Source: Clytia hemisphaerica
Taxonomy: Eukaryota; Cnidaria; Hydrozoa; Leptothecata; Clytiidae
NCBI GenBank assembly: GCA_902728285.1
Contig: CACVBU010000276.1
Location: 186,001 to 250,000 of the forward strand
Length of the DNA: 64,000 nucleotides
Direction of reading: 5' to 3'
Position numbers and translations under genes: made by a program
Notes under the pieces: model-generated
What the model was told of the DNA's origin: nothing
Databases searched by the model: none
Seen by the model: the letters and a program-made list of their open reading frames with translations, nothing else
Part shown: positions 23,767 through 61,164 of the stretch, piece after piece
Layout: each line of letters begins with the position of its first letter
How positions within the stretch are numbered: the first letter of the stretch is position 1

Positions 23767-25133
23767 GGACCTACCCCGGTGGAGGTCCTATAAATTAACC
23801 TATGTTTGTTCGTCCGTTCGTCCGTTCGTCCGTCCGTTCGTCTGTTACCAACTTTTCTCAGGATTGAATCATAGGAATCTTTTGATTTTTGGTATAAAGG
23901 TGCAAAATGGTGGTGGCCAATGTTCAAATTACTCAATTTTTTTATGAGATAGATGTTTTTTTTTGCTCACGAGGGCTTACTTTTGAAAAATATGTGTGTT
24001 TAAACATGCAATTTTGGTTGCTTGGCGTGTTTTTATAGAAGAACTGGCCAAATTCGATATTTTTTATAAGCACATTATCAATTACTTAGGTATTAGCTTT
24101 TCTCGAGATTAGCTCTTTCATTCTTTATGATTTTTTGCACAAAGATGCATAACTATAAACCCTTAAATGTGTCGGAGCCCGATTTTCGGAAAAAATATTT
24201 TGGTCAAATTTGAGCCAAAAAACGGCTGAAAAACGGGTTTTTTGGACTTGGTGAAAAATTCGATCATTAATTTTTTCCAATTTTTTGCATGAAAGTAGGG
24301 TACCATCATAGGTAAAAGATGGTTCAAGCAGATTTTTGCAAAAACATTTTGTTGGCTCAAAAAAAACGCATGTTTATCTATAAGAATCACCATTAATAAG
24401 CATACATCAATGTTTTTAGTCAAATTACTCAATTTCTTTATGAGATATATGTTTTTTTTGCTCATGAGGGCTGAATATGTGTGTTTAGAGACAAAATTTT
24501 GGTTGCTTGGCGTGTTTTTGTAGAAAAACTGGCTAAATTCGATATTTTTTTATAAGCACATTATCAATTACTTAGGTATTAGCTTTTCTCGAGATTGGTT
24601 CTTTCTTTCTTTATGATTTTTGCACAAAGATGCATAATTATAAACCCTCGAATGTGACGGACCCTAATATTTGAAAAAAAAAATGTTTTGGGGCAAATTT
24701 GGGCCAAAAATCGGCTAAAAAGGGTTTTTTGACTTTGTGAAATATTGGTTCATTGTTTTTTTCTGAATTTTTGCATGAAAGTAGGTAAAAGATGGCTCAA
24801 GCAGATTTTTGTAAAAAAGAATTTTTTAGCTCAAAAAACGCATGTTTATCTATAAGAATCGCTATTAATAAGGATACATCAATGTTCTTAGCCAAATTAC
24901 TCAATTTTTGATGAGATGGATGTATTTCTTGCTCACGAAGTCTTGAATATGAAAGAATATTTCAAGGGCATGAAATTTTGGTTTCTAAACGTTTTTTTAT
25001 AAGAAACAAACGACTAATTTTAATAGATCATCACTATTTGTGTTCTGAATGATTGTTTAACGGTCACGCTCACGTAGATATCAATTATATGTGTTAAATG
25101 CATAACCAGGTAGGTCCATAAAAGTATCACTTG
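23767..25133 (+). mobile_element. Complete non-autonomous Helentron-like element (HINE type)
   Basis: Left end GGACCTACCCCGGTGGAGGT after a T run; right end CAGGTAGGTCC, ATAAAAGTATCACTTG, followed by TT. The left end can fold on itself (GGACCT/AGGTCC) and pairs with the right (GGACCTACC/GGTAGGTCC). Just inside the left end is a GTCC/GTTC tetranucleotide tract like the GTCY tracts of Drosophila DINE-1/HINE elements. The body is about three degenerate tandem units of roughly 480 bp (for example 24011 and 24493). There is no coding capacity. The same two ends bound the intact Helentron at 43998-53637, the likely source of mobilising enzyme. Confidence 0.75.
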
Positions 25134-25944
25134 TTTAACTTCTACTTACGTGTGTGGTTATTTTATCAAAGTTCTTTTCCAAAGACAGAACTCATTCCAA
25201 CTTTGCTGATTGCATCCTTTCAGTAACTATAGATAAAATCGAAAAATTAAATTAGTATTGCAATTTTTAAAAATGTTGAGGATGAAAAAAGCTTTTGTCA
25301 AAAAAGTAAAAAAATCTTTTGAAAAAATATTGTCATTTAATGAATGATTAAATTAATAATACATCAAAACTCTTTTTTCAGTATTAGTAAATCATTTTTC
25401 ACTCGAAATATTTTAAGCAGCTTTAGATATTTGAAAACTCAAAGCATTTATCCCAAGCCATTGTGTGATCCCTAAAAGTAATGTCATATGTAGCATACGT
25501 AAAAATCAATCCCTTGAATTAGAGATATTCAATTTTCAACATTCAATTTTAAAGAGATGGTTTGCTGCAAAAATATGGTTCAAATGAAACTTAGCATCAA
25601 ATCCTGATTTGACAAAAACTAAACAAACTCTAATGAAGCAAATCTTTAAAAAGGTGAAGCTTTAGAACATGTGCCTTATTTTTGACGACTGATAGAATTT
25701 AGCTGTTTCTTTGTTTTCAAGTTGTATAATATAATCTAGAGGAAATTTTTACTTTCAATCTGAAATTTGTATAAAAATCATGCGGGCCGCTCAAGCCCGC
25801 GCAACTTAGGTAGGATTCAGCGGCTTCAAATCCTACCTAGGAGATTCGCATCTACCCCGTTCGGGCTTTTATTTCATTGGTTTCGTCCTTTCCAAGTTCG
25901 GGAAAAAAAATGTAAATAAAAATAAATATGAAGTGTGAACTTAC
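25134..25944. other. 3' region of the STAND gene with a structured GC island
   Basis: AT-rich except at about 25779-25861. The last exon(s) of the STAND gene should lie here on the minus strand. One acceptor (ATCTCCTAG before about 25839) would give a phase-compatible exon that stops after two codons, but this is unproven. Confidence 0.35.
25782..25860. other. GC-rich two-hairpin motif with kissing loops, possible structured RNA
   Basis: Plus strand: GCGGGC (25782) pairs with GCCCGC (25795) around the loop CGCTCAA. An 11-bp stem TAGGTAGGATT/AATCCTACCTA (25807-25839) encloses CAGCGGCTTCA. The loops are complementary (CGCT with AGCG), allowing a kissing pseudoknot. The hairpin with CAAGCCCG resembles one conserved part of twister ribozymes, but the remaining twister parts could not be placed. 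It could instead be a transposon end or a DNA cruciform. Confidence 0.35.
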
Positions 25945-28900
25945 CAGGTGAAACATCTACACCTTCTTCATTTTGCTTTTGTTTCTGTTTGTGCTGTTCT
26001 TTCATTTTGACTGCTTCACGATAAATCGAATGGTGATCATCAAACCGTTGCAAAGATATCTCTTCAACTTCAGTCAAATGATTCATTGCTTCTTCAATCC
26101 TTTTCATACCAAACAAGCAGTTTGCCAAATTGATTCTAATGGAGAGAATAATTGGATGTTCTTTATCCAACACCTGTAAACCATCTTCAAGGGCTTGTGA
26201 TAAAGTATCATGGGCTTTATCAAAAAGTTCTTTTTCTGCCAAACAACGTCCAACAACGCTTGTCGTTTTTAAAACTTTTGGATGGGATTTTTCGAATGTT
26301 TCGATCTGTTTTGTTTTTGTTGATTCAAGAATTTCCAATGCATCGTCAAAACGTCCTTTCATTGATAGAACATGACCGATGTGGAAACTGCTTCTCAAGT
26401 ATTGATCGTGATGGTCACCAAAAACTTCTGACAATATCGGTTTAGATGATTCCAAAATTTGTAACGCTTCGTCTAATGCTTTCATTCTCTTCAAGCATTC
26501 TCCGATACAGATTTTGCCAATCAAGTACTTCCCATGTCTCTGGCCTATTGTTTCATTCCATACTATTTCGATTTCTTTGAAGATACTTAATGCGTCCTCG
26601 TAATGAGACTTATTCATTAAACATTGTCCGATGCTGAGTTTTGTGGCGAGGTAACTGTTGTGACGTTCACCGAGGGTGTCCTTTTGAACGGTTTCGATTT
26701 CTTTAAATATACGTAATGCGTCATGATAATGAGATAAATTCATTAAACACTGTCCGATGTTATGTTTTGTGGTGAGGTAACTGTCGTGACGATCACCGAG
26801 AGTGTCCTTTTCAACGGTTTCGATTTCTTTAAATATACGTAATGCGTCATGATAATGAGATAAATTCATTAAACAGTGTCCGATGTTATGTTTTGTGGCG
26901 AGGTAATCGTTGTGACGTTCACCGAGGGTTTCCTTTCGAACGGTTTCGATTTCTTTAAATATACGTAATGCGTCATGATAATGAGATAAATTCATTAAAC
27001 AGTGTCCGATGTTATGTTTTGTGGCGAGGTAACTGTTGTGACGTTCACCGAGAGTGTCCTTTTCAACGGTTTCGATTTCTTTAAATATACGTAATGCGTC
27101 ATGATAATGAGATAAATTCATTAAACAGTGTCCGATGCTATGTTTTGCGGTGAGGTAACTGTCGTGACGATCACCGAGGGTGTCCTTTCGAACGGTTTCG
27201 ATTTCTTTAAATATACGTAATGCGTCATGGTAATGAGTTAAATTCATTAAACAGTGTCCGATGTTATGTTTTGTGGTGAGGTAATCGTTGTGACGTTCAC
27301 CGAGGGTGTCCTTTCGAACGGTTTCGATTTCTTTAAATATACGTAATGCGTCATGATAATGAGTTAAATTCATTAAACAGTGTCCGATGTTATGTTTTGT
27401 GGTGAGGTAATCGTTGTGACGTTCACCGAGGGTGTCCTTTCGAACGGTTTCGATTTCTTTCAATATACGTAATGCGTCATGGTAATGAGTTAAATTCGTT
27501 AAACAGTGTCCGATGTTATGTTTTGTGGTGAGGTAATCGTTGTGACGTTCACCGAGGGTTTCCTTTCGAACGGTTTCGATTTCTTTGAATATACGTAATG
27601 CGTCATGGTAATGAGTTAATTTTCATTTAAACAGTGTCCGATGTTTATGTTTGTGGTGAGGTAATCGTTGTGACGTTCACCGAGGGTGTCCTTTCGAACG
27701 GTTTCGATTTCTTTCAATATACGTAATGCGTCATGGTAATGAGTTAAATTCGTTAAACAGTGTCCGATGTTTTGTTTTGTGGTGAGGTAATCGTTGTGAC
27801 GTTCACCGAGGGTTTCCTTTCGAACGGTTTCGATTTCTTTGAATATACGTAATGCGTCATGGTAATGAGTTAAATTCGTTAAACAGTGTCCGATGTTATG
27901 TTTTGTGGTGAGGTAATCGTTGTGACGTTCACCGAGGGTTTCCTTTCGAACGGTTTCGATTTCTTTGAATATACGTAATGCGTCATGGTAATGAGTTATT
28001 TTCATTAAACAGTGTCCGATGTTATGTTTTGTGGTGAGGTAATCGTTGTGACGTTCACCAAGGGTTTCCTTTTGAACGATTTCGATTTCTTTAAAGATAC
28101 GTAATGCTTCATGATAATGAGATAAATTCATTAAACATTGTCCGATGGCGAGTTTTGTGTTGAGGTAATCGTTGTGACGTTCACAGAGGGTGTCCTTTTG
28201 AACGGTTTCGATTTCTTCAAATATACGTAATGCGTCGTTATATCGAGAAAGGTCATTTAAAGTGTGTGCATAATTATGTTTAGTTACCAAATACAAGTCT
28301 GTTCTCTCGTTACCATCTGTATGTAGATTTTCCATCATTTTTTTCAAGCAGTCAAAAAGTCTTCTCGTATCTCCTTGTGTTTTAAACAGTTGAATCAAAT
28401 CATTCTGTACATCAATGAATTTCATAAGAAAGATATTTTCAGCATCTTTTTCACAGATGAAATGAAAATGCTGGTACCAGTATTTGCCATCGATTTTGTG
28501 TTCCTGACTTCTGCAATTCCTCATGTCTTCAATAAAGGTATTTGCTAGCTCCTGATAGACTGGTTCTTTGACATTTGGAACGTAAGCTTTGATGAACGTT
28601 TGAGTTAATTCGTGACAGTTTATTTGGTTTTCTAGAAAGCCTGTTCCTGTGTTGGTGGTTTCAATGATTGAGTACTTGGCCAATAAAGATAAGATCTTAT
28701 TTAGATCAAATACATCATTAACAAATTTGATTAGTAATCCTTTCCTGATGTCTTTTCCATCCAAGTTGGAGATTTTGTTTAGAAGATCAGTAACTTCTTG
28801 ACCACCTTCCTGTAATAATCTATTATAGGTTAAAGACAAAGTAGTATAAACTGAAGGGATTCCAATTTGTTGTGTTCCCTCTGAAAGAAGTTCTTTTTGT

Positions 28901-30114
28901 CTTTTTTCGAATATGGTTAGGTACATTTCAACAGTTAGCCCATTCTTATTGATATATGAAAAAGCCTGCTGTAGAGCAAGGGGTAGATAGCTGAGAGATT
29001 TTAGAAGTTTTTGGTTTACTTCTTTATCTTTGCGTGCTTCTACATCGTGGATATTTGTCTCTAAGAACTGTTCAGCCTCTTCGTTAGAAAATTGTCCTAT
29101 CTTGATAACATCGAATCGTTGATCCCATTCACTGCATTGTGTGGTGATGAGAAAATGCGGTGCTTCCTTTTTGGTGTCAGGAATCAAATCGACCAAAGCA
29201 GTCTGATTGATGACATTGTCTAGAACAAATAAAACTTTGCGTGGTTTATTCACATCCTGTCTTACTGAGAAGTAATCGTAAACAAGATTCGAAATCTCTT
29301 TCAATGATTTGACTGAACCATTTTGATTATATATCTGATCAATGCCACATCGGTTGGCGATCTCGGTGAATGATTTTTCGATGTTGACCAAGTTGTGACA
29401 GTTAATCCAACAAACAATATCCTCATAATAAACATTACGATAGGATTGCCAATACTCGCGAGCAGTCTCTGACTTTCCACTACCTCCGATCCCACTGATG
29501 ACAACGGAGAATTTGGTGTCATCGTGGTGTTGACGGTAAACTGCTTGGTGAATATTGCTGACCAGGTTTGCTCTTTTGAAGTGGTTGGCGACTGGCGGTA
29601 GACAGGCATAATTAAAAGAAGTCTTGGTCATCAGTTCCTTAACTTTAGAATCAACAATCCGTATATTACATATGTCATCAAATTCAGCCTTGGATAGCCC
29701 TAGCTGTAATAAGTGTGGTTCTGCTTCACTGAGTATGGCCTTGAATTTCGTTTGACTGACTTTGGTGCCACCATGTTGGATCGTATTCCTGATTTTTATC
29801 AAATCTTTCTTATTTTCTCCGAAGAACTCTCTAGTTACAAAAAAGAGAAGTGTACTGTCAAACTTGTCAATATAGACCATTCCAGAAGTTGGAAGGAGTA
29901 ATTTGTACTGCTCATCTTTGATGACATTTTTTTTCCTCAGTTTATCGATTGTTGCTTTATGTGATTGAAAGAATTGAAATAGTTTTGCTGGGTCTCGTGT
30001 GTTCAATTTTATATATATTCTCTCTCGCAGTTGATTGTCTAATTTGCCAAGGAGAACCTGGCAACGAAACCCTCTTTCTTGGTCTTTGTCAGTATGTGAC
30101 TGTGTACTCAGCAT
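25945..30114 (-). CDS. HEPN-like / NB-ARC / TPR STAND receptor-like protein, frame broken
   Basis: A cytosolic signalling-NTPase architecture like animal NLR relatives. Residues ~25-150 resemble the DZIP3-type HEPN domain and contain RNTIQH (109-114), an R-x4-H HEPN motif. NB-ARC follows: Walker A GIGGSGKS (208-215), Walker B KVLFVLDN (293-300), TTQ at 324-326 where TTR is usual, YLPLAL (376-381). From about residue 630 come ~18 kinesin-light-chain-type TPRs of 42 residues; units 3-13 are almost identical, the last four diverged. The reading frame ends at 27616 in one TPR unit with four clustered indels and is open again from there to 25945, so one gene is inferred. A donor (CCTG|GTAAGT) at 25945 shows a further 3' exon. 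The ATG follows an acceptor (TTACAG) with no gap, implying an upstream 5' UTR exon or trans-splicing; coding exons further upstream cannot be excluded. Confidence 0.8.
26600..28225 (-). repeat. Near-identical 126-bp TPR-coding tandem repeats
   Basis: About 13 units of 126 bp each encode one 42-residue TPR. Most differ by only a few substitutions at DNA level, including silent sites, so the array was expanded or homogenised recently. Variable residues cluster at set positions: K/T/N in CLMNLT-type helices, R/E/Q in ETVRKDTLG, D/S at the unit start. Confidence 0.9.
27616..27660 (-). other. Frame-breaking indel cluster in one TPR unit
   Basis: Compared with its neighbours, this unit has an A lost and an A gained around the K-H-N codons (net zero). 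It also has an extra A before the next Met codon and an extra T a few bases later. The net +2 shift produces TAA. All four changes are in short A/T runs within about 40 bp, whereas the other units have none. Confidence 0.9.
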
Positions 30115-32828
30115 CTGTAATGTAAAGAAAAGAAAAACCTCTGCCCACCAAATCGTTAAGAAAGATTTTCCTTAATACTCTACTTAGCTTTCATTATTTT
30201 AACTCAGTCACGCGTGAATCTGGTATTTTACAGACTGATGTTAAGAAATTTACTTTCAAGCTTTTGTTCCTATAATAACTTCTTGGAAGAAAAACTAAAT
30301 ACTTTTGAGACTAATATGATATTTACTGACGTTTTTGGTCCCAAAATTCAGAAGCAGCCGATGAGCCTGTTTCCCCAAAATATATGTTTCCCTCTTCCAG
30401 GAGATAACTTTTACTCGAAAAATTGGAAAACAGATCAGAGTTTCTAGGAAAGAGGATTTCCTTACAACCATCTGCTTCCCCGCTTCAGCTGATGACGTCA
30501 TCATTTGGGAGCGAATCAATATTCCTCGGAGATAACATAATAAATTGGGAAATAGATTTGTTTCCAAAAAATGACAATGCATAAGAAACAAATTGAATTT
30601 TCTACAAGCGAAAACTGATATTAATTACAAAAGCGTAGGAAAAGAAGATTTCTAGGAGAGGGAACATATATCTAATGCCTTAAAAGCTTCATATTCAAAT
30701 TCTATCGAGTAGACAGTTTGAGATTAAAACTTTGGTTTCTGAGGAGAACAGATCTTCATTTCTAGGAATGAGATTTTTTAAACCTTTGGCCAACAAATCG
30801 AATTTCCCAGTAAGACTACACTTTTTTCTTTTAATTAGAACAGCTTAATTTTGGGTGAACCTGGATGTGCTTATTTGTTGGCAATTTTGAGCCTAAAATA
30901 TTCTTATTAGCGTTCTTGGAATCAATTAGCTCAAATATACAAAATTAAAAATAATAGTAAAATAATTACTACAACTACAAAAATTTCTTATGAATTTAGA
31001 TAATTTTAAGCCATTTGGTTAATTTCTTAGATTCTCAGGCTGACCATGTTCTTACGATGTTCTTATTTTTTCCCCAAATTTCAGCCTAAATGTTCTTATA
31101 AACTGGGTTCTAACAAAAGGAAAAACTTGTATGCCTGGGGAACAGATGTTTAAAAAAAGATCTTCGCTAGATGCTTTCAAAAATGAGCAATTTTTGTCAT
31201 TATTGCCTTCTTTTTCAGAATTGTTCATAATTTTTTAAAGAGACAAGAACATTATCTTTCCTTCTCTTGACAAAATGTAGTATATATTTTTCAGGATGTC
31301 ATGGCCATAATGCATTTTCGCCTGTTTTTTGTCAAAAAACAACTTTGAATGGTCAAAACTTTAATTGACTTCATTTTTGACGTATGTTTTTCTTAATCTT
31401 TTCTTAATCTCCACCAAATTTGCGACCTTTTGGTATGCAATATGACCAAGTTTTGAGATTTCAGATTTTATTGGTCACTATCATAAATGAGCTTTAAATA
31501 GAACTTTGAGGGCCCTACGATTTCGGAGTATAATGAAGTTATATGCATTGAAGAAGATACAAACTAGCGACTAACCATGACAATCTGTAATAATGGTACA
31601 TTTTGGAAGAAATAAATAAAGTAAAAAAACAAAAGGAATGCACAAGACACAAAAGTAAGTGATAAGGTGAAGACCGAAGTCTGAGATCAGGTGCGGTATC
31701 TTGAGTAAGCATCTCCTGCCACTCTAGAGTTATCTGTCAGCTTAACAATAACAAGAAGAAAGAAATTAAAACATACCATAAAGTCTGACCATACAGTTAA
31801 GTACAGCAGAAAAGGAAAGGTTGAAAAGTCGGCCTAGAACTCAGTTTGGCGTCCCGTGCCCGAGCGGCCGCCTCAAAGAGAAGAGGGAGAAGAAATGACA
31901 AAAAACTCAAGAAAATGAAAATTAAACATAAAGACATAAACAATAAAAATTATAAAAAAACGATGAAAAACGATGAAAAAACGACAAATCCAAACTTTGT
32001 AATTTTATTTGTAAATAAGGAAAACGGGAATTTTAAAAAAGTAAAACTTTCAGTATGTTCTTGACACGGATACAGAAAACTGTCTATACACAAGAAACTC
32101 TAAGATAGGAATATTGTTAAGAATACCTTTGAATCGACTTCGGTTGTTCTTGATCGATTTTGCTTGAGCCTTGAGCCTGGAAGGGTTTAACCCTGAAAAT
32201 TGAAATAGAGGAAAAATTAGTATTCGAAAATGCACAAAAACTAAAATCTTTCATTGAATAATGAAATATTAAGTTAAAGTTGGTGGCTACCCCCCCCCTC
32301 CCCTCTAAATTCCCACCAAATTTGACATTTTGGTTTGCAATTATGACCATGTTTTGAGACAGTTGATTTTCAGTCGATTTTCGCCCCGTTTATTTTTGTT
32401 TTATTCAAAATGTTCTTACAGTATAAGACCCCTAGAGCTCTTTTAATTAATAGGCTACAGTGATCACTAAAATTAGTATTCAAACATTGGGTGCGTTTAC
32501 ACATCCTTGGTTTCTGGCAAACTATAATTAGATGGGGCCATAAACCTCTGTTGTAACAAGCATTCGAATAAACTGTCTAAAGATGAAGAGAGAATTTATT
32601 TTTGATCTTTTGCCTTACGTAGTAAACTGCGTGCCCAGCAATCGTTAACATTACCTTATCGCCAACATGAAAGATACGAACAATCTGATTGGCTAAAAAC
32701 ACGGATATAAATCATTCTCTACAAGAATATTCATGCCAAAAAAATATTCTAAGAATATCACTAATATAGAATTTGGCAACCGAACTTAATAGAATGTAAT
32801 AAAAAAAATTCGGGAAAGCAACAAGATA
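30115..32828. other. Intergenic upstream of the STAND gene
   Basis: Likely contains the STAND gene promoter and 5' UTR exon, neither of which can be located. A short GC-rich stretch near 31840-31875 contains a NotI-like GCGGCCGC. No protein-coding exon is supported. Confidence 0.35.
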
Positions 32829-40539: not shown

Positions 40540-43500
40540 ATGATAGTATTTCAAGTGGTGGGTGCGGTCGTTGGATTGTTGGTTTTCTATCTATTTGTCA
40601 CTCCTTCACCTATTAAACCTGTCCCCATAAAGTAAGTACTTTACAAAATATCAAAATGACGTCCATCTAACGTCCCGAATAGCCAAATCATATTTATAAA
40701 TGGACATTGAAACGACGTTTTGGGCAGTCTCGGGGGAGGGGGGAGTTACTTAGGCGAAATGATTGTTTACAGTTGGGTATGTGCGAGCAATAAGGGTCCC
40801 ATTTTTAAAAACCGTGATTTTCAAAAATTTGGATTAATGTTGATTGTAATCGACAAAGATTTCAGAGGAAAAGTCTCTCTAAGGGTCTTAAAACTTCACT
40901 TTTACTCTTTATAAGGGGTTAGTGCCCTCCTCTCCCCCTGTGTAGAAAAATGAACCAGTAGACCCAAAATTCATACAAACATGAAGTGTCATGATTTATT
41001 TCGCCATAACGCCTGGGAAAAAGATTTTCACGATCAAGCCGTTTTGTTCAATTTCGCGATCTGACTCCATTACGCCAGTTTTTTGAGGGGCTTTATGCAA
41101 TCTGGGATTGATTGTTTTATTTTTATCTCTGCCTCTCAAACATTCTTTTGGCAAAAAATATTGAAGGATGGACTCTTATTTAATCTATCACTTTTGTTCA
41201 CTTTTCTCTAGGAGTCAAGACCTGCCCTACTTCGATGGCATCTTACAACCAAACAATGCATTGCAGCAGGTCATCAAAATCTTACCAGGAGAACTCAATG
41301 GACCAGAATCTATTCAAGTTGACAAAGACGGTAAGTGTCGAGACTTTTGGCTAATATCTTATCAGGGAAAAAAGTCGGAGGAAAGTATTGCTTTAAACAC
41401 AATCTTGAGGCAATACAGTGTATTGTATATTTTAATTTCATTCTTTTTCAATTTTTGAACTTGCTTGTTATATTATTTTCATTTTTACTTTCTTCTAGGA
41501 AATATATATACGGGATTACACGACGGAAGAATCATAAAGATCTCACCGTCCGGCAAAATAGTTCATTTAGTGCGAACAGGAATGGATCTTCCCGAATGTG
41601 GTAAGGGGATTTTCTCGTTTTTATAGTCTCGGGCACCTAATGAGCATCCCCACGCTAATTAATGTTTTGAAAATTTTCTATTCATGATAATCTTATTTCA
41701 TACCCCCTCACAGGAAAAAATTTTTGGGTTGGAAATTTTGGGTTGGAAATTTTGGTTTTATAATTGAAGGTAGTAAATTTGAGCGATTACCTTAAGCTGA
41801 TTTGGAAAACGTAAATTACCCATAGGTTTTGTAGAATAAACCAATGCCCTTGAAAAATCAAGTGAAAAAACCCAATGTAGAAATGACAATTTTCCAAGGC
41901 TGGTTGGAAAACATGACTTTTTGGGTGGTAAATTTTTGTTTCTCCAAACAGTTTGGAAAACGTTAAAAATCCATGTGGAAATTACATTTTTGTGAAATTG
42001 AAACTCTTTCGATTGGAAAACTAAACTTTTTTGGTTGGAAATTTTTGTTTCTCCAAACAGTTTGGAAAACGTTAAAAATCCATGTAAAATTACGTTTTTA
42101 TACCACTTTCTGCGCATGTCCTTTGAGAAAACCACAAGCGATTTTTCGCGCAGAACTGTTTTGATGTATATCTAACCTAGATATTAGGCTATAATGTGAG
42201 CAGTCAAGCTGTAAGTTTCTGTCAGGTGAGGCGTTCCTTCGGAGCGGCCTCGGTCAATCGCAGTGGGTTCGCACAGTGAAGCACATAGGGTACTTGTGTC
42301 ATAGTTTCAAATGGTGCCCTGCTGAGCTGTGTGAGTGATCTAAGATCAACCACGTATCTGTGCGAACAATAACGAGAGATTGACCGGGAGCCATCGAGCC
42401 TAGGCTAGCGAGCGACTGTTCAAAAAAACAAAAACCTTGTTTAAGATCTCTTTTTCCACATCTCTGTCATCACTTTTTGGATTTTGGCTTTTTTCAACCT
42501 GGATTTTTGAAAATTCCAACCTTTTTTAGCTTGGATTTTGGCTTTATTCAACCTGGATTTTTAAAAATTCCAAGTTTGTCTACTTTGGATTATGGCTTTT
42601 TTCAAACTAGATTTTTGAAAATTCCAAGCCATGGAAAATGCAAAATTTCCATCCTTGGAGAGTGTCCCAAGTTTCCAGGTTGGACTTTCCATTGGATTTT
42701 ATCTATTTTCCAACTAATAAATCTTGAAATTTCCAACCTTGAAAATCAAAATTTTTTTCCTGTGCCTCCCCGAGGGGCAAATCACTAAAATACATCTCGT
42801 ACACAATTTTAGTAAATCAAAAATAAATCATAAACAAATCATAAATCAAGAATAAGTCATAAACCTCGTATACAATTTTTCGAGTGATTTGCCCCTCGCC
42901 CTCCCCCGCTTATTAAGTTTTGAGAATTTTTCCACCCACCCCGTTTGTTAGGTACGCGAGAGTAATGACAAAAATAGTTTCTCCTCTAACAAAGTTCGGT
43001 GAGTTTTGTCACACTGTCATTGATATTGAATTGTTACATTTCTTTTTGGACCTACCCCGGTGGAGGTCCTATAAATTAACCTCTGTTCGTCCGTTCGTCC
43101 GTTCGTTCGTTCGTTACCAACTTTTCTCGAGATTGGCTCATTAGTTTTTTCTGATTTTTGGCACAATGATGCAAAATGTCAATACCTAAATTGTGACGAA
43201 GCCCGATTTTCGAAAAAAATTCATTTCCGGCCAAAAATGCCGGAAATATGCCGGAAAAACTGCTTTTTTGGCATTTTCTCGAGATTTTATCATTAGTTTT
43301 TTCTAATTTTTTGCTCCAAAGATGCGTATTAACAATGCCCAAAACATGGCGGAGTCCGACTTTTGAGAATAATTTTTTTCCGGCGGAAAATGCCTGAAAT
43401 ATGCCTGAAATCGCCGTTTTTCTAGATTTTCATTGGACTTTTTCCTTATAATTGGTTGTTTTTTCATTCAAAAACATTATTAATAGCAATGCCCACCATC

Positions 43501-46500
43501 AAGCATGTTTCAATTTTCAATAAAATTGATTTTTGAAGCCGGAACTATTTTAAAAGTCGCCGGAACAACCTATTTTCGCCGGAAAGACAGTATTTCTTGA
43601 ATTTCTCGAGCTGTACTTTATATTTTTTTATGAAATTTTGCACACTGACGCAATATGACAATACCTAAAATGTGACGGAGCCCGATTTTCGAAAAACATT
43701 TTTTTCCGGCCGAAAATGCCGGAAATATCGAATTTTTATTTTTATTTTTTTCTGATTTTTTGCAGAAAGATGCGTATTCGCAATGCTCAAAACATGGCCG
43801 AGTTCGATTTTTGAGAAAAAATTTTTTCCGGTTGAAAATTCCGGAAATCGCCGTTTTTGCAGATTTTCATTGGATTTTTTCCTTATATTTCTATGTTATT
43901 CACACAAAAACCTTATTGATAACAATGCTCACCATCAAGCATGATTCAATTGTCAAAAAAACTGATTTTTACGACCAGAACTTTCTATTTATTTTTTGGA
44001 CCTACCCCGGTGGAGGTCCTATAAATTAACCTGTGTTTGTTCGTCCGTTCGTCCGTCCGTTTGTCTGTTACCAACTTTTCTCAGGATTGAATCATAGGAA
44101 TCTTTTGATTTTTGGTACAAAGGTGCAAAATGGTGATTGCCAAAATGTGACGGAGCCCGATTTTCGAAAAAAAATTTTTTTGGCTAAATTTCAGCCAAAA
44201 AATGGCTGAAAAATAGGGTTTTTTGGACTTAGTGAAAAATTGGATCATTCAATATTTCTCCTTTTTTGCATGAAGAAAGGGTACCATCATAGGTAAAAGT
44301 TGGCCGTAGCAGATTTTCATAAAAAAATTTTTTTGGCTGAAAAAACGAAACTTTATCTATAAGAATCACTATTTAGATCATAGATCAATGTTATTATCCA
44401 AATTATTATTTTTATTATTAAAAAAAAAGATTATAATGTGTCACGGTGCGATCAGGGAAAAAGTTTCACCGGGGCTGTGAGACAGGGGTGGTTAAAATCT
44501 GACTGAAACGATACTGTCTGTAATCACCAAAAAAGACATTTCAGGTCATAATTTACTTATGTCCAATAAAAAACGTCGAAAAAAGCTAGAGTTTCTTATG
44601 TAAAAATTATATGTTGTTAACAGAGAAAGTGAGCGTATGTAAACATCTTTTACTCATTTAATGAATAGATTTTCGATTAATGAAGAAAGGAGTGAGAGAA
44701 AGATATGTTTGCAAAATATCTTTCTCGCGGTAGCAATGAGAAAACTCCATCGTAGAGAATTTAGAAAGATTTTCAACGAAGCTAATTTATTTTTGTTGTT
44801 ATTAAGCAACTGGTGGAGAACAGATTCTCCTTTTAGTTTTAAAAACAGGTGAAGTAACAGATGAACACATTGCTATTTACAAGAAGTAATTTAAGAGATG
44901 AGAGTTGAATTGGAGAAAATATTTTCAGAGTAACTTATAAATTTTTATCATTTTTGTTAAGAAATACACTCGGTATAATGTTGTGTGTCTCTTCTTTTAA
45001 CTTGATGAAAGGGACTTGAAATCATTTAAACATTTTGCTATATACGTTTTTTTTTTATATAAGGAACACGTTTAAAAGGAACTCGAGGCTGAAAATGGTC
45101 CAAAAAATAAGGAATTGTTTAGGAACTGCTCAGGCTGAGAATAAGAAAACAAGTTTTAAGGAACAGTAAGAAATGGTTATCCAAACTTAGCAGCTATGTA
45201 AATAAGGAACTCGATAAGGAACTTTGAGGCTTAAATTCTCTGTAAAAATAAGGAACTCCAGGCTCAGAGCAAAGTTAAGGTTCCTTATAAAAAAAGAACG
45301 TGTATTGTAGCACTATGTACTATATAATATTACTAATTTTTATCGTTTCAGAGCTAGATATACTTATTAAAACCAAGGTACAAAATTAATAATAACAATA
45401 CTAATATATCGAATTTCTGCCAACGAATCAACGAAAAGTTCCAGATTCAAAGAACTCTTTGATAGAAGCAGTCGTTTCAGAAAAAGCGAAAAAGCAAGCA
45501 AAAATCACCGACAACGAACAACAATTCCAGAAAACATCTTTTGAAGAAAGAAGAAAAGTGCTAGAGAAGAAAAGAAGAAAGAAGAAAAGTGCTAGAGAAG
45601 AAAGAAGAAACCTTGTTATACTGATTATTTTTAATATAAGAAAAAAAAAGTAAAAAAAAATATTAAAAAAGTAAAAAACAAAAGAAAAAATAAATAAAGA
45701 AAAAAAAAAAAAAAGAAAGTAAAAAACAGAAAAAAAAGTAAAAAAAGAAAAAGACTTAAAAAATAAAAGTAAAAACAGAAAAAAATAACAAAAAAGAAAT
45801 ATATTTTTTGTTGTTGTAAATAGGATTGATTTATTGCCCGGTGTCACCTATAAAGCGGTGGAGGGGTATTTGAATCATTTGCCAAAGAGTCACCTCTTGG
45901 CTGTCATTACGCTCATTACGCTCATTACGATCATTACGAATACTGAGAATACGAAATCTGAAAATACTACATTTGGACATACTTTTGAAATTGAAAGATT
46001 GAAGTTTTGTTTATCTAACAAAATAATGGGTAGAGGTAGACCAAAAGGTACACCCAATAAAAATAAGGGTTTTAAAGGAATACCACTTAAAACGTCAAAT
46101 GCAAAAAATAATGTAAATTTGATTCCATTCTCTGATTTACGGGGAAGAAGTAGACCACTGGGACTGAAAAATTTGGGTCAAAATGTTTGCTTTTTCAATT
46201 CTGTAACTCAAGCATTATATTCTGTTGATAGCTTCCGCGCATCTGTATTTAATCTTGATGTCGATAGCCCAATAAAACTTGCAATCAAAGAACTTTTTAC
46301 AAAAATCGAATCCTCTGAAAACACATTGGAAACATATCAGTTTATCAAATCTATAGAATTACCACATTATAACCATACTCTTCGAGAACAGTTTGATGCA
46401 CAAGAATTTATGCTTCATATTTTGAATCAAGTAAATCCTCTAACAGCAGACCAGTTCGTGCCCAATGATAGTATTTTCTGTATATCATTTGCAGAATCAA

Positions 46501-49500
46501 TTTTATGTCAAACTTGCGGTAATTTCTCTAACAAAGAGGTCACTGATAATATATGTCAAATACAGCTTCCAAACCGTTTCAGTGTAAATTCTATTGAAAA
46601 TGCTGTTTCGAAAATGGTTAATGACCCATACGGAGAATTTCTCCAAGAAGCCTACGAGTGTTCTCACTGTCCCGTTCGTACAGTTGCCAAAAAATTCAGG
46701 ACTTTATTCAATGTTTCTAATGTGTTAGTTATTCAATTAGTTATTTTCGGATTTGACCAGAATACTTTCGTGTCTAAAAAGCTAGCCCCCAACTTAAACG
46801 TTGAAACACAATTTGACAATGTTCTGCTGGGAAAGCTTCATTTGCAAGCAATCGTTTACCATCATGGCAATTCGGCTAACAGTGGCCATTACACGGCTGT
46901 TGTAAAATACGGAGAAACTTGGTATAGGGTTGACGATGAGAGTGTTGTACCCATTCCGAATGTTCAGTCTCAGTATAAAGTTGATGATCGTAGCGTTCCG
47001 TACCTTTTGATTTACAAAAAAACTAGTGGAGAAATGCCCACAACACCTATTGAAAACAAAAGTCATTCTGACTCTCAGTATTCTCCTTCTCCAGACATAG
47101 TTAGTACTGGTAATGAAGATCCAACTTCTAAAGTCACACACGCTAATCTTGATGTCGCAATAGACAACCCTTTCCAATCCTTTGCAACGATAAAAAATCT
47201 CACATCTGAAACAATGATGAGAAATTCCCTTCTTCAAGAACTTGATAGACAAAATCGTAAAGTTACTGAAACCAGAAGCACTCTCGATAAACCTTTTACT
47301 CCAGTTAAGCGAAAGCGAAAATTATCAACTTCTTCAAAGAAAAACGCTATGAAAGATGTACGATATAATATGGATGAGGTCAAAAAGCGGTTGTTTAGAA
47401 AAAGTGACCAGTCTAGAAAAAGACATTTTCGGCATAACCAAGATGAACTTGAAAAGAAACAGGAGAGAGAGTCTGTTAAAAAAATAATGAAAAAAATAAG
47501 ATGTAACCAAGACGAATTTGAAAAAGAAAAGGTTCGAAAATCTGATCAGGCAAGAAAGAAGAATTTAAGGGATAACCAAGATGAATTTGAAAAAGAAAAG
47601 GTTCGAAAATCCGACAAGGCCAGAAAGAAGAATTTAAGGGATAATCAAGATGAATTTGAAAGGAAACAAGAAAAAGAATCTGCTCAAAAAAGAATGAAAG
47701 AAACCAGGGATAATCGAGACGAATTTGAAAAAGAAAAGGTTCGAAAATCCGACAAGGCCAGAAAGAAGAATTTAAGGGATAATCAAGATGAATTTGAAAG
47801 GAAACAAGAGAAAGAATCTGCTCAAAAAAGAATGAAAGAAACCAGGGATAATCAAGACGACTTTGAAAAAGAAAAGGTTCGAAAATCTGCTCGGGAAAAA
47901 ATGAAAGATTACCGAAGTTTTCATAGAGCGCAACAACAAAAGGAGTTTGGAAAAGTTCAAAATGCTAGTATGGTTGATCCATCAATAACTTTAACTAAAG
48001 CGTTTGAAATTTTGAAACAAAATTTTGATTCTGCAATAAAAGAAGGTCCTACAAATAAGTGTCACATTTGCATTAAGTGGGAATATAAAGGAAATGGTAA
48101 GAACTTTCTCCATAAGGAATATGAAGAATTTGAGATTTTTGAAAAATGTGATATTTCAAATAAAGATTGTGACCCGGAAAAAATTTATTGGATTTGTTAC
48201 CCGTGCGATAAAGCAATTAAAAAAGATAAGTTACCCATGCAAGCACAGGCAAATAATTTACAGCTATCGCCTAGAATTCCTGAATTAGATAATTTGTGTC
48301 CCATAGAAATGATGCTTGTGTCGCAAATTATTCCCTTCATGTTTATTGTACCAAAACATAAAGGTGGACAGCAAGGTCTCAAAGGGCAGTGCGTAATGGT
48401 TCCGGCAAATCTAGACAAAATTCAAAAGATTTTACCAAGAGTTTGTAGTGAAGAATTTTTAATATCACTCGCTTTAAAGCGACGTCTTACAGATAAAAGC
48501 TATGTGAATAAACAAAATATCCGACCTGCATTTGTTACAAAAGCTTTAGAAAAGTTAGTTGAAATAAATAAATTTTATGAAAATGTTGTACCTAATGCGA
48601 GATGGGAAGATGAAAGTTTGAGAAGAGACCCTGAATTATGGTCACTACTTACTGAAAAAAATGCACAACCTCAGCAAGATGTTGAAAGTGATAGTGATGA
48701 TAACATTGAAGGCAATGATAAAAATCACGAAAAACAAATTAAAGATAACAATTCTTCCCAGCCAACTCTAATGTATGACATTGAAGGCGCAAATATTACT
48801 TCAGAACAAGCTATTGAGATTGCTCATAAACAACCCGCCTCTGTATCATCTGATGAAATTGTCAATATTGCACCGTGCGAAAACGAAATGCCTGTGTCAT
48901 TCTATTCTGAACCAGATTGGGAAGCATTAGCTTTTCCAGGGCATTATCCTGATGCTAAGAATTACTTCAATACGCCTAGAGATAGGAATATAACTCCAAT
49001 AAAATATGTCCATGCCAGGCTGAAATCATCAGATGATAGATTTGCTTCAGATCCTCAGTACATATTTCATTCTTTGCATTGGACGGAAAGCTCGAATGTT
49101 GCTAGTGCAATCAGTTTTTCACAGCAAAAACACTTTCAAAGTGATATTTCAGCAGGATCATTGACCAACCCTGATAACGTTAGACAAATGATAAATGATG
49201 ATCAAATTTTCCAAAACTCATTCAAGAATATTAGAGGAACTCCGCAGTGGTGCCATAACATGATGTTGGATGTTTTAGCTAAATGTCGCGTGTTTGGACC
49301 TAGCACATACTTTCTTACATGGAGTGCAGCATTATTTAAATGGACGAGTATTATCAAAGTAGTCGCTACACAATACGGAGAAAATCTAACAGATGAAGAG
49401 GTGAATAATATGAGCTGGAGTGAAAAAGTTCAATATTTAAAAAGAAACCCTGTCACAGTAGCCAGGCAAATCGATCACATTTTCAATAAAGTTTTTCCAA

Positions 49501-52500
49501 AGATGCTCATGAGCGGCATGCATCCAATAGGACAGATTCTAAATTATGACGATAGAAGAGAATTTCAACATCGTACGGGGCTGGAACACGTCCATTCACA
49601 AGTCCATATTAAAGATGCACCTAAGATCAATGAGAGAGACAGTAGCAAAGACAACGAGGTTATCGATTTCATTGACAAATATGTCACGTGTCAGCTACCG
49701 GATAAAGAAAAATATCCTGAGCTCTACCATCTAGTTAACACAGTTCAAAAACATCATCACACATTTACTTGTAGAAAGAAAAGTGGATCAAGATGTAGGT
49801 TTAAAGCACCTTGGCCACCTTGTGAAGAAACTCGTATTATACGTGGAAAATACATTGATAAAAATGAGTATAGACAAAGCAAAAGAATTTTAGATAAGGT
49901 ACTTGACGAAATTAATAATTACAGTACAGATCTTGAAAGTGTTACTCTTGATGATTTATTATCATCTTGTGATCTTTCAAGAGATGAATATTTCTCTGCA
50001 TTAGATATTGTTCAAAGAAAGTTGACTGTGATTTACAAAAGGGAACCTCATGAAACTAACATCGGCCCATACAATACTGTCATAATTAGCCTTTTACAAT
50101 CAAACATGAACATTCAATACGTTACAAATATGTATGCGGTGTTAGCGTATATTACTTCTTACATGTGCAAACCAGAAAGAAATATGAGTGAACTTAAGCA
50201 AAAGGCACACAAAGAGGCATCTGGAAAAGCTGTAAAAGATAAATTGCGTGCTATAGGAAATGTGTTTTTGACTAAACGTGAAGTATCGACTTATGAAGCG
50301 ATAAAAAGGACTCTGTCTTTAAAGATGCGAACCTCGAATATTGATGTTGAATATATTCCATCAGGACCAAAAGAAAAGCGATTAAGGATGTTAAAAAATC
50401 CATCTGAGCTAGCTAAACTCGATCCAGAGTCCAAAAATATTTACAAAAAGAATTTAATTGACAAGTATGCTCATCGTCCCAACAACTTAAGAGACATGTG
50501 CTATGCTGACTTTGCTTCCACGTATACTTATCCAAAGAAAAACGAAAATGAAGAAGAAAATGAAGTAAATGAATCTGAAACAGAAACTATCGAGATTAAT
50601 GCTGAATTATCCAAAACAATTACATTGAAAAATGGCATGGGGAAAATGAGAAAAAGAAGCCGCGCGTGTGTAATCCGATATCATAAAGTTAGTAAACTTC
50701 AAGATAGAAATAATTACTACCTTGTACTTCTCCAATTATACATGCCTTGGGAAAATGAAGATACCATTAAAGGAGATTGTGCAACATTTGAAGAAAAATT
50801 CTTTGAAGTTGAAGAGGTGATTATGCCAAACATTTTAAAACATGATTCTCATTTTAACCAACCAAATGAAATAGACCTGGACGAAATACCCGTTTATGAT
50901 AACTCTGACTCAGAAAGTAGCAGTGAAGATGAACAAGGCAACGATTATGGTGTATTTCATCCAGATTTGATAGACTTTGATCAAGACAATGAATCTAATG
51001 ATGAATCGAATGAGAACCCCTTGATACCTTTTACTGTGACAAATCAAAATCCTGCTATACCACGTGATTTATTTTACAATATGTGTTCTAATTTTAACGA
51101 AAAACAGCAAAACTTTTTTAATTACATATTTAAATATGTTATGACTCTTAAATTAGCTGAGAAAAACAATTCCCTTGAAAAACCAGACCCATTTAGAATT
51201 CTATTAAGTGGTGGTGCAGGTGTTGGAAAAAGTTTCTTGGTAAAAGCTTTGACGGAACAGTTGAGAAAGATCTTGAAAGAGCCTGGTCAAAATTGTGACA
51301 CACACCCATCTGTTCTTGTAACTGCATCAACTGGTAAAGCGGCAGCAAGCATTGACGGAACCACCTTGCACTCAGTGTTGAAACTACCAATATATGGAAA
51401 GGGGACATACATTATTAATAAATCACTCAGCGATTCAAATATGCAAAATCTGAGAGTAAAATTTAAATACCTAAGGATTCTTATAATTGACGAAATCTCT
51501 ATGATTGGGGACAAAAGTTTTGATGATTTGAATTTAAGATTGCAAAATATCAAAGAAAATAAAGATTCGTTTGGTGGCATTTCCTTGTTATTGATTGGAG
51601 ACTTTTTTCAGTTGACACCTGTTGGTCAAAACTCAATATACGACCCAAAAGGTTTAAGATTCGCATGGGACGAATTCCAACTTTACGAGTTAGAGGAAAT
51701 AGTTAGACAAAGTGGAGATTCTGAATTCGCTGAATTACTTAATAGGCTTCGTGAAGGTAACCATACGTCAGCTGATATCGAAAAAATTTCATCTTTCGAA
51801 CAGACTGATACAACTGAATGGCCAGAGAATTTCATGAAAATGTACATAACTAACCGACTAAAAGATCAGCAAAATTCTCTTTGCTTGAGACAATGTAAAG
51901 AATGGGGTAATAAACATACCTCTTTAGCAAAAGATGAGTCAAGAACTAAAGTTAACTTAAAGAAAGATATGCCAATCAATGAGACTGCAGGGCTACCAAA
52001 GGAATTGACGATATGTGTTGGAGCTAGAGTCATGCTCACGATCAACAAAGATGTTGAAGATAAATTGATTAATGGCTCAACCGGGATAGTTCGATACATT
52101 CAAGGGCTTAGAAACAACAAACCCTCGGGTATGATATTGGTTCAATTTGACAATCCCTCATCTGGTAACAAACTGAAAGACTCGAGATTAAAATATGAAT
52201 ACAAATCATGCGTTCCTATTTACCCAGAAACAAAAACTTTCAAATTCAATGACATTGAAATCACAAGAAAACAGTTCCCATTGATTGTTGCATTTGCTAC
52301 TACAATTCACAAAGCACAAGGTAGTACATTGGAATACGCAAGTGGGAATTTAGATCAATCAACTAGAAGTGGGAAAGGGTTAACACCAGTTGGACCAGGG
52401 CTTCTATACACACTACTTTCTCGTGCCACATCTAGTAACAATATACATTTATTGAATTTCAAGCCTGATAAACATATTGTTGTAAATAATAAGGCCCTAA

Positions 52501-55500
52501 AAGCAATGGAGGAAATGAGATCGAACAAGGCTTTATTGTTAACTCATCCGTTGGAAAGAATGCACGGTCCAAACTTGTGTCTTTTCAATATTAGATCATG
52601 GAATATGCATATTGAGCATTTCCTATCTCAAAAAATTTACACCTCTAGATGCTGCTTGCTATGTTTTACAGAAACTGGTAGAAATACTGCCAAAAGGGTA
52701 GAGGATAATCCAAACTTATCTACTTGGAAAACATTACACAAACAAACTGAACATGGACTAGCAATAACTTATGATACGAATCATGTTCAAATAATTCAGC
52801 TATTAAATACAGTTAGTAACATAGAATTACTTCCGTCTTTGATAATGGTCAATGGTGAATATATTTTACTCGTTCTAATTTACAGACCTCCGGCAAGTTC
52901 AATTCCTTTGTTTATACAATCGCTGCAAATCGAACTCGATCAAATAGGACAGCAAATTGACGTTGCCACATACTCGACAGTAATTCTTGGTGATTTCAAC
53001 TTGCCTGTTAACAGAAATGATCTGAATGAATTATTACCACCGCATATCTTTCACCAGCGTTGTCATTATCCCACTCATATTGATGGAAATATTTTAGATC
53101 TTATCTTCCAAAATAATTGCTCCGATGCAGCAGGGTGGATGCCATCTCCTTTCAGTGATCACTTTGCTATTTTTGTTAACCTCATTCCATACTCTTAGAA
53201 TTTTCATAATTGATAATTAAAAATTCGGTAATTCAACTGTATATTTATGTATATTTTGTTTAAATGTAAAATGTAATATAGGACTTTGTAAATAAATAGA
53301 ATTGAGTTTGTAATCTTATTGCTCCCCCCTTCCCCATCCCCAACTCCGCCACATGAAACGCAATCTATGATGAAATGAAAACTGAAAAATGAAATCAAGT
53401 TTGTTCTTACTTCAGTTTTGATTTATTTCTGAATGATTGTTTACAGTGTCAGTATTTTTTTGCTTTTAATAAACATTGTTTGTCTCTTTCAAGATTTAAT
53501 CACTTTATGCTATGTGGATTTATACTTTTCATACTTTAAAGAATTTATTGCTGCCTTAAATTTTCATTCTTTCATTATAATATGTTCATAGATAGATATA
53601 CATGTTTTACCAGGTAGGTCCATAAAAGTATCGCTTGTTCCTTACAACCCTTCCCTCTCCCCCACCATCAATCAATGATAAATTTCTTGCGTTATGCATT
53701 TTCGCTAAACGCTATGTTTTCTGACTGATTTTTTTCATTTTTCTCCTTGCATTGCTATCTAACTTTCATCATCAGGTAGGTCCATTCAGCATCTAGCTTG
53801 TTACTGATGTTTTTATTACAAAAACATAAAAAAAACTTCCATATTCATCTTATCATGTAAGTTCCACAGTCAGTGGAAACAAAGAAAGCATCTTTTTCTA
53901 ATCTTCAGCCAACATCACAGTAGAGGACTGCGTTTTGGGGTAATTCGATTGTGCCAGTGCATAGTACACGTTCGGGAGACTCTGCAAAAAGCATAGTCAT
54001 AAAAAAGTTCATCTAAGCTGGACTTTCTCTCCAATCCCATTCCTTGTATTTATTTTAGGCAATATAACAGCAGAGGACAAATGTGGACGACCTTTAGGTT
54101 TACAATTTGATCGTGACCAGGAAAATCTCATCATTTGTGACGCTTACCTTGGTTTACTAAAATACAACTTAAAAGCTGGGGAACTTACAACGTTAATTTC
54201 TGCTTCCAAAGGAGTCAACGATGTTCCATTCAAATTTGTCAACCACTTAACCATCTCAAGTAGTAATAAGGTCTATTTTACAGACTCAAGTTGGAAATGG
54301 CAGAGGCGTGATTTTCCATACATGATCTTGGAGGGCGGTGGTCAAGGGCGTTTAATCAGTTATGATATAGAGACAAAACAAAGTGAAGTACTGATGGATG
54401 GGTTGTTTTTCCCGAATGGAATTGCGTTATCCCCTGATGAGGAATTTGTTGTAGTATGTGAAACCACAGCTAGTCGAATTATGAGGTATAGTTTATTCTT
54501 GTACTTTTTTGTTTGAATTTGCCCTAAAATGTCAAATAGAACTATTTTCAACATTCTTTGGACTGAGGTAGCTAAGGGAAATATTCATTCTCGAGCTTGA
54601 GGAGTTTACAAGGCTCCCACAGCTCCTCAAATCTCCTCAATTCTCCTTAAATTTCAAATTTCTCCTCAATTCTCCTCAAATCTCCTACTTTTTCTCGATT
54701 TTCTCCAATATTTTCTTCAAATCTCCTCAATTAAATTTGACCAAAATTAAAAAAACGTTCAAGGTAGTATCGCTGGCCTTTGAAATATGTTTCGAAAATT
54801 GATTTTCAAGAATAACATGGAAAATCTTCCGCTCGCTGCGCTCGCACGTCTCTTTATTGTTTTTCAATAACTCAACATCAATGGCGTTCTGGCAGGGAAA
54901 GGGGCCACGACCCCCCAACAGAGTTTTTTTTGAGGGGGCGCTAAAGAGCAAGCAGCACTACATGGGGTTTTTAAAACGCCCCAATGTTAAAAATTACTTT
55001 ATGCCCCCTTAATTGCCGCCCAGGACCAATTTTACTAAAATTATTTTAACTTACTTGCAATTTTTCTTGCTTGAAAATCTCCTTGGAAAATCTCCTCAAT
55101 TTTTCTAAAACTATATGAAAAACTCCTCAAATTTTAACAGATTTCTCCTCAAAAAAGTAAAAAATCCTCCTTAATTCTCCTCAATTCTCCTTAAATTTAA
55201 AATTTTGAAAGCTGTGGGAACCCTGATTACTATCTTTTCTATTCTATTCCTTACTGCAGTGAAATTTCAACAATTCAACTGGGGTTAATTAGACTCACTT
55301 GGTCACTGAGAAAGGATTGATTTTTGTTGTATTCAGCATTTTATCGATAAATTCACAACACTGAAAATCCTTCAAAAATGGGCGGTGCGTTCTTTTTACA
55401 AGGAGTGTTGGTCAGAAAAGGTAATTTGTATGTTTTTCAGAAATAAACAGCCGAGTATTAACTTAATACTCTTTACTCTCATTCTAGGTTATTTTTGAAA

Positions 55501-60087: not shown

Positions 60088-61164
60088 ATGGTGGATCTTA
60101 GCAGCATTCCATGGGACGATGACCCTCTTGTGTTTAATTTTCATAACGAAATTCCTGGCAAAGTCAAAATGCATACCCGAAGTATGAAATTGGAGGATTG
60201 GGTCAAGATTGATAAATCATATCCAGACCAGATGAAAGAAAGACAACGATTATGGAAATTGTTTCCCGAACAAATCTACATGAGTCAAACAGATGACTCT
60301 GCTGTAGCTTGTAAATGGGAGCTTTTTGAAATGCTTGTTGATTATCTTCCGGAAAGATTTCCGTATATTTTTGAAAAACGGGAATATTCAATTTACAATA
60401 AAGTATTAGATGAAGAAGTATCAACTGATCGGAATGATCCGGTATGTCCGTTAATACGTGCTGGACGTCTGACGCAAGAAGATTGGGCGATCATCGAATG
60501 GGATGATACGGAACAAGGGTACATACTAACTTCCGGTATTGTTTATTTTCCCATGCGTTGGTCACTTAAGGATAAATTTCGAAAAGGCATCGCAGGTATC
60601 CATATACCTGTTAAACCTTTCATGGAAAACCTTGTCAAACATGTTTATGATGTCTTCAAAAAAATGAAACCTGAATGCCCCTTATGGCGTGCTAATTGGG
60701 CCGTTTTCAACGACTTAGAAGGGCCGCTTGATTTGTTCACACCTTCAGGATCTCTCGATCGAAATGATGAAAATAAGACGACCATTTTTGAGGGTGATGA
60801 AACCGGAAAAGTTCTCACTTTCCGGGCTGAATACAAAACATTACGGAAATTACCGAAAACGAAATGTATTGTGTTTGGGATTCGAACCTACCAAAGATAT
60901 TTAGAGGAATTCAAAGAGCTTCCTGAGTCAGATGCTAAAGGTCTAATCACAGCAATCCAAAACCTGAACGACGATTTTGTGATGTATAAAGGAGCAATGT
61001 TTTGGAAAGACGCAGCGATCAAGTACCTTCAGTATGCTATCGATTGGCGCAAACCGAAGTTGAACAAATCAAGTGGATATGGTTGGTATTTGCCGGTTAC
61101 AATTACCCTAGGGATTGCTCTTACAGGGTACTTGCTACATCGTGCTGTTTCTATTAATAATTAA
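60088..61164 (+). CDS. Heme-dependent oxidative N-demethylase alpha-like protein (DUF3445), membrane-anchored, intronless
   Basis: Belongs to the DUF3445 / HODM_asu-like family, whose bacterial members bind heme and oxidatively demethylate methylamines; the animal substrate is unknown. 358 aa in one exon. Family landmarks: a short N-terminal MHTRSMKLEDW (W in the usual GLKPLDW-like site), LVDYLPERFPYIF, LTQEDWAIIEWD, FPMRWSLKDKFRKGIAGIH (the best conserved block), WRANW (200-204), TLRKLPKT, FGIRTYQRYLEEF, and a final LPDD-like LNDDFVMYKG. After a Lys-rich linker, residues ~333-352 form a hydrophobic helix ending in a short tail, so it is probably a tail-anchored membrane protein; bacterial members lack this. 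The start is the first in-frame ATG. Every other complete host gene here has introns, so a retrocopy or a horizontally acquired gene is possible. Confidence 0.85.
   Translation: MVDLSSIPWDDDPLVFNFHNEIPGKVKMHTRSMKLEDWVKIDKSYPDQMKERQRLWKLFPEQIYMSQTDDSAVACKWELFEMLVDYLPERFPYIFEKREYSIYNKVLDEEVSTDRNDPVCPLIRAGRLTQEDWAIIEWDDTEQGYILTSGIVYFPMRWSLKDKFRKGIAGIHIPVKPFMENLVKHVYDVFKKMKPECPLWRANWAVFNDLEGPLDLFTPSGSLDRNDENKTTIFEGDETGKVLTFRAEYKTLRKLPKTKCIVFGIRTYQRYLEEFKELPESDAKGLITAIQNLNDDFVMYKGAMFWKDAAIKYLQYAIDWRKPKLNKSSGYGWYLPVTITLGIALTGYLLHRAVSINN

Follow-up and report, generated by a model that had tools for sequence, protein, structure and literature searches.

What is a ubiquitin-specific protease (USP) doing at the start of a transposon's replication protein? 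The question is raised by a 64,000-nucleotide stretch of the hydrozoan Clytia hemisphaerica (contig CACVBU010000276.1, positions 186,001 to 250,000 of the forward strand; hereafter the window), in which a single open reading frame (ORF) on the + strand, at 46026..53198, encodes 2,390 amino acids in the order USP, linker, DUF6570, Rep, Pif1 and endonuclease with no internal stop. The initial annotation had described a Helentron protein carrying a USP-family deubiquitinase at these positions; they fit the ORF, but the element itself is larger and extends from 43996 to 53638. On the analyses below, we put at roughly three in four the probability that this is an autonomous Helentron whose Rep-helicase polyprotein starts with a USP that removes ubiquitin during transposition, the function being one that we infer. 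In such a mechanism, the likeliest substrates of the USP would be the transposase to which it is fused, or host proteins of replication, repair or chromatin at the donor, replication or insertion site, and stripping them of ubiquitin would spare the transposition complex proteasomal removal. The enzyme may possibly also counter host silencing.

The USP domain and the polyprotein that carries it

The N-terminal domain (residues 46-330; 46161..47015, + strand) matched the Pfam UCH profile (PF00443, peptidase C19) over positions 2-254 of 254, with 84.5 bits and an E-value of 1.2e-23 (cut-off, 23.9 bits), and the N-terminal piece alone scored 90.5 bits. Neither OTU (PF02338) nor Herpes_teg_N (PF04843) gave a match at E<=1 with the whole protein or with the N-terminal piece. 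Cys55, His288 and the aspartates of the WYRVDDE motif (D303, D304) lay where the initial annotation had placed them, and the domain also has N49 and four zinc cysteines at 161, 164, 212 and 215; we take these residues to have the roles of the Cys, His, Asp/Asn, oxyanion Asn and zinc Cys4 of known USPs. N49, C55, H288, D/N303, D304 and the four cysteines were kept in 19 of 19 aligned transposon USPs, which comprise 14 family copies (three of them, C928, C654 and C617, mutually identical), 3 further loci from the genome USP matches and 2 members of a second lineage described below. With a complete domain and intact active-site residues, the window USP is apparently catalytically competent.

AlphaFold with 21 sequences gave a predicted local distance difference test (pLDDT) value of 87.2 and a predicted template modelling score (pTM) of 0.87 for the USP domain; the single-sequence fold (pLDDT 33) was useless. 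The top PDB matches of the model were USP46-ubiquitin, USP14, USP35, USP18 and USP12 (E 2e-22 to 6e-22; template modelling score, TM, 0.76-0.80 on the query), and the predicted structure is that of a USP and of no other fold. Human USP46, USP12, USP35 and USP36 share its fold, catalytic residues and zinc fingers, and among viral folds, giant-virus USPs matched best (E 4e-20, TM 0.77). However, the human and giant-virus USPs are only ~17-26% identical to the window USP, and theirs are host or virus genes rather than transposon ORFs.

The remainder of the protein is that of a rolling-circle transposon. No stop interrupts the frame between 45789 and 53198. In the stretch from 45789 to the start used, 46026 is the sole in-frame ATG; upstream lies a leader (44020..46025, +). 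A charged linker of 69-bp repeats (47349..47910, +) separates the USP from DUF6570 (residues 733-855; 48222..48590, +; Pfam E 2.4e-15), which, like the Helitron_like_N match of Rep (residues 994-1190; 49005..49595, +), scored above its Pfam cut-off. The HVH motif of Rep was found in 17 of 17 family rows, and its tyrosines 1375 and 1379, downstream of the Helitron_like_N match, both aligned in all 17; in one copy (C558), a gap of one residue separates them. The PIF1 helicase (residues 1722-1916; 51189..51773, +; Pfam E 1.9e-26) also scored above its Pfam cut-off and matched Pif1 and Helraiser in PDB. Exo_endo_phos fell just under the Pfam cut-off of 24.5 bits for the AP-type endonuclease (residues ~2185-2386; 52578..53183, +), with 18.1 bits in the whole protein and 23.6 on the piece alone, and this piece had no match among PDB sequences; nevertheless, six endonuclease motifs, with conservative changes, were kept in 13 of 13 aligned family rows. 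Third-position GC was similar in the USP (0.30), Rep (0.30), helicase (0.31) and endonuclease (0.28). Having a Rep HUH motif with two tyrosines, a Pif1 superfamily 1 (SF1) helicase and a C-terminal AP endonuclease, the element is, by its sequence, classed as a Helentron.

USP enzymes normally require ubiquitin on their substrate, which counts against another role for the domain, that of a mainly self-processing protease whose cuts in the 2,390-residue polyprotein might fall, for instance, within the repeat linker. The sequence of that linker also differs among copies. We consider self-processing improbable, although it would suit a polyprotein that is large, comprises several domains and has a long, charged linker made of repeats, and cleavage of the Rep/helicase/endonuclease has been proposed for OTU proteases (PMC4067079). 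Removal of ubiquitin from other targets or from the transposase remains our preferred reading.

Borders, copies and constraint

The whole autonomous Helentron, TTGGACC...CTTGT, occupies 43996..53638 (+; ~9.64 kb), with ends that are exact within a run of T. The same ends were seen in other genome copies, each with different flanks. A 156-base query made of the joined flanks found at least 40 uninterrupted sites among the places scored (a lower bound), with 95-97% identity over 154-156 bases across the join, indicating that the borders are right to within the run of T. The 5' palindromic subterminal inverted repeat, GGACCTACCCCGGTGGAGGTCC (43998..44019, +), has 3 exact copies in the window, where 0 were expected, and 835 in the 417-Mb genome (407+428), compared with 0 for a reversed-pattern control; its hairpin (-5.9 kcal/mol, z -2.1) was equalled by 4 of 200 shuffles. 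Repeat comparison inside the window located the palindromic 5' end, TTGGACCTACCCCGGTGGAGGTCC, at four places, of which one contains an insertion; the 3' end, AGGTAGGTCC...CTTGT, was located at three. Comparison with other copies placed the 3' subterminal repeat and end of the element itself at 53612..53638 (+).

As is typical of Helentrons, there are subterminal inverted repeats, with TGGACCTACC at the 5' end and its inverse at the 3' end, and the insertion sites are T-rich, as judged from the 5' flanks of most copies. No exact 11-13-base inverted repeats were present between the element flanks; the shared 10-base repeat surfaced when copies were compared. Short stems occur near the 3' end, and the small 3' hairpin was no better than shuffles. 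Apart from the 3' hairpin, which lacks significance here, the element has the anatomy published for Helentrons (PMC4067079). One copy, C928, has two tandem 5' ends (L011:836 and 877), 41 bases apart, as if a rolling-circle start or an insertion had been repeated.

The genome contains two more copies that are full-length and open, C928 and C654 (84% identical). The initial annotation had left room for a separate, intron-bearing captured host gene; none was seen, the window, C928 and C654 each having one open frame. Its central claim, a USP-class and apparently competent domain upstream of Rep, helicase and endonuclease, was borne out in one ORF, inside the element ends and in many copies. By our own tally of the match table, 41 of the 132 genome USP matches have no stop in 285 or more of the 301 residues, and the USP was found down to ~50% identity within the family. 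Among 19 compared copies, a USP or what is left of one is present in 18: 14 yield it at 90% coverage, one is partial (C558), one has stops (C633), and in C672 and C237 it falls outside the fetched stretch. C508 has none.

The median ratio of nonsynonymous to synonymous substitution rates (dN/dS) was 0.22 for the USP (20 pairs, range 0.14-0.51), 0.07 for Rep (27 pairs), 0.08 for the helicase (7) and 0.33 for the endonuclease (18), all taken from pairs with dS 0.05-1, which are not independent. In the pairwise set of 78, we set aside 18 pairs with saturated dS, and 8 were discordant more than tenfold.

Could the USP then be a passenger that was picked up from a host gene and has no role in transposition? 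Helitrons capture genes, the dN of the USP is above that of Rep, and C508, which lacks the domain, still has its two ends and a long open frame. Yet a dN/dS of ~0.22 and catalytic residues in 19 of 19 sequences speak against a passenger. So do USPs as divergent as ~50% identity among family members, the occurrence of the domain in a second lineage of Helitrons, and an identity of only 22% between the transposon USP and L026, the single presumed host USP in the alignment. We therefore regard the passenger explanation as unlikely, a little more so than self-processing, and favour a USP that serves the transposon.

Exchange of the 5' half and a proposed deubiquitinase slot

Comparison of the window with C928, C654 and C617 gave 61% identity and a dS of 3.0 for the USP, versus 98% and 0.06 for Rep; the helicase and endonuclease of C928 and C654 were 99% and 98% identical to those of the window. 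With C118 the pattern was reversed (USP 95%, dS 0.05; Rep 84%, dS 2.27), and with C584 the window agreed across all coding domains compared. The change in identity is abrupt and falls within 48134..48300 (+), between 48133 and 48182 for the window and C118 and at ~48300 for the window and C928, and all sequence 5' of it (5' end, leader, USP and linker) travels with the USP. The USP tree placed C118 with the window and C584 (100/100); the Rep tree placed C118 with C672 (100/100) and C928 with the window and C584 (97/99). Both trees omit C617 and C654, which are identical to C928. Four approximately unbiased (AU) tests, run on 15 USP rows and 13 Rep rows with groups named after the trees were seen, rejected the swapped groupings (p 0.00125 to 4e-65).

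These comparisons indicate that the 5' half recombines as a module between related copies. One assembly was read and C118 is a single copy, as would suit assembly chimeras rather than recombinants; however, C928, C654 and C617 share one combination on three contigs with different flanks, making a chance assembly join unlikely, and the other combination is common to the window and C584. We judge chimeras to be very improbable, and recombination to be the explanation. Because the exchange shifts the whole 5' half, it is no proof of selection for new USPs.

A second Helitron lineage also carries a USP. Its ORFs L036 and L037, of 2,000 and 2,047 residues, contain a USP (that of L037 taken from the genome USP search and alignment rather than from a whole-protein Pfam scan), a repeat linker that differs in sequence from the window linker, DUF6570, Rep (HIH) and Pif1. 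Although their Rep domains are only ~21-22% identical to the window Rep (E 1e-6 to 1e-8), their USPs clustered with those of the window family in two trees, with support of 98/97 and 100/98. The comparison sample was small (one presumed host USP, L026, with three human, two bacterial and three large-ORF USPs), and the 100/98 tree also omits L002, L038, L039 and L040. A single acquisition of the USP by transposons is favoured by these groupings, but not settled. Transfer of the USP between Helitron backbones is likely rather than proven, since the opposite grouping, with the second-lineage USPs forced to the host and human USPs, was only marginally disfavoured (p-AU 0.053) and the root of the Rep tree is a midpoint only. 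The initial annotation had suggested independent recruitment; this stands for the enzyme class, USP being distinct from both OTU and VTD. The domain itself, however, seems to be shared with the second lineage and so need not have been recruited in that of the window.

Three large ORFs of another kind, of 1,422-1,731 residues, contain a USP: L038 (C197:1631444), L039 (C558:488641) and L040 (C472:2302205). L038 has a Ulp1/C48 SUMO-protease domain besides.

The initial annotation knew Helitron peptidases of the OTU type only, and here it needs correction. Helentrons with a Herpes_teg_N (VTD) deubiquitinase have been published (PMC9741609) and are abundant in the same genome, which has 100 Herpes_teg_N matches. 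We counted deubiquitinases upstream of 150 scored Helitron_like_N (Rep) matches, using 67 USP matches (fragments omitted), all 150 Rep, 100 VTD and 57 OTU rows. A VTD lay 1.8-4.6 kb upstream, on the same strand, of 53 of the 150; a USP was upstream of 3, an OTU of 0, and no locus had both USP and VTD. The figure of 3 understates the USP, because the window family's own Rep is missing from those 150. Several ORFs of great length (up to 2,273 residues; C618:88609, for example) contain OTU domains, and none of these is less than 7 kb from the 150 scored Rep matches; they are perhaps of another transposon type.

The two VTD ORFs that were read, L041 and L042, have the order VTD-DUF6570-Rep-PIF1. 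Like the window element, they and the published VTD Helentrons (PMC9741609) combine an N-terminal deubiquitinase, DUF6570, Rep and Pif1 in one ORF, and the published ones carry an AP endonuclease; that of L042 was seen in part, with first motifs present and 14.1 bits, under the cut-off. The VTD Helentron Rep is 30% identical to the window Rep (E 1e-73), whereas the enzymes differ, Herpes_teg_N in one and USP in the other. OTU-bearing Helentrons are also known (PMC9741609) and, as in the window, have a deubiquitinase-type cysteine protease, but an OTU, not a USP (PMC4067079, PMC2836005). A Transposase_11-Peptidase C19 protein of Trichomonas vaginalis joins a C19 domain to a DNA transposase, as in the window; the transposase, however, is of another kind and not a Rep-helicase (PMC2836005). 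VTDs of zebrafish Helentrons cleave K48 and K63 chains, and the same authors proposed that Helitrons profit from deubiquitination by different enzyme classes (PMC9741609).

Since USP and VTD, from unrelated families, occupy one and the same position, what the element requires would seem to be deubiquitination itself, whichever enzyme supplies it. We suggest more tentatively, at something short of even odds, that Helentrons keep a 5' 'deubiquitinase slot' that is refilled over time with VTD or USP and reshuffled between copies by recombination near DUF6570, as if in a contest with the host over ubiquitin control, the USP having crossed to a distant lineage.

Several observations weigh against a USP that serves transposition. 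No USP, VTD or OTU was found upstream of 94 of the 150 Rep matches, a figure in which truncation and other Helitron types are not separated. The USP is under weaker constraint than Rep. C508 (L025) has the two element ends and an open frame of 2,133 residues, but of the USP it has only the last few residues; loss of the domain can thus happen, irrespective of whether a copy like this is still mobile. The fold model is silent on rates. Finally, all 19 transposon USPs have an extra residue in the Cys box (N-x-x-x-N-V-C-F-F-N), which could alter catalysis; it is absent from human USP36 and USP12, L026, the bacterial L001 and the three other large-ORF USPs, and the bacterial L002 is the only non-transposon row that has it.

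Outside searches, neighbouring features and implications

Searches of viral_contigs with the whole protein, the Rep piece and the USP piece found no relatives, nor did the whole protein in genome_contigs; the USP alignment had no match in viral_contigs, and tblastn of the USP none in phages. In genome_contigs, the USP alignment found two bacterial USPs (L001:2912-4075 and L002:5381-7708), in metagenome-assembled genomes of Amoebophilaceae and Simkania. There was no Helitron among the L001 ORFs listed; of L002, the USP end only was read.

The autonomous element is nested inside a non-autonomous relative, which it splits into a 5' part (43046..43995, +) and a 3' part (53639..53801, +), as delimited by end comparison and joined-flank matches. 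Exon-like pieces of an APMAP/strictosidine-synthase-like gene flank the whole nest (Str_synth match, 53965-54516; upstream piece, 41165-41458, judged by eye). Another non-autonomous relative with the same ends lies at 23765-25134. Elsewhere in the window are two adjoining ORFs at 25874-30171 (-), one with HEPN_DZIP3, NB-ARC and TPR and the other with TPR repeats, which resemble an NLR-like gene, and a 358-residue ORF at 60088-61164 (+) of the HODM_asu-like family (PF11927, E 1.7e-60).

Full-text searches of an open-licence library brought up no description of a Helitron-borne USP among the titles, abstracts and passages seen, subscription papers, Repbase and protein databases being outside this scope; unremarked database entries with the same architecture are likely. 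The USP would be a third deubiquitinase class in Helentrons, beside OTU and VTD, and a single genome holds different deubiquitinase families in the same position, with the 5' module exchanged. USP enzymes are well studied, and probes and inhibitors exist. The finding makes the idea that transposition needs deubiquitination directly testable.

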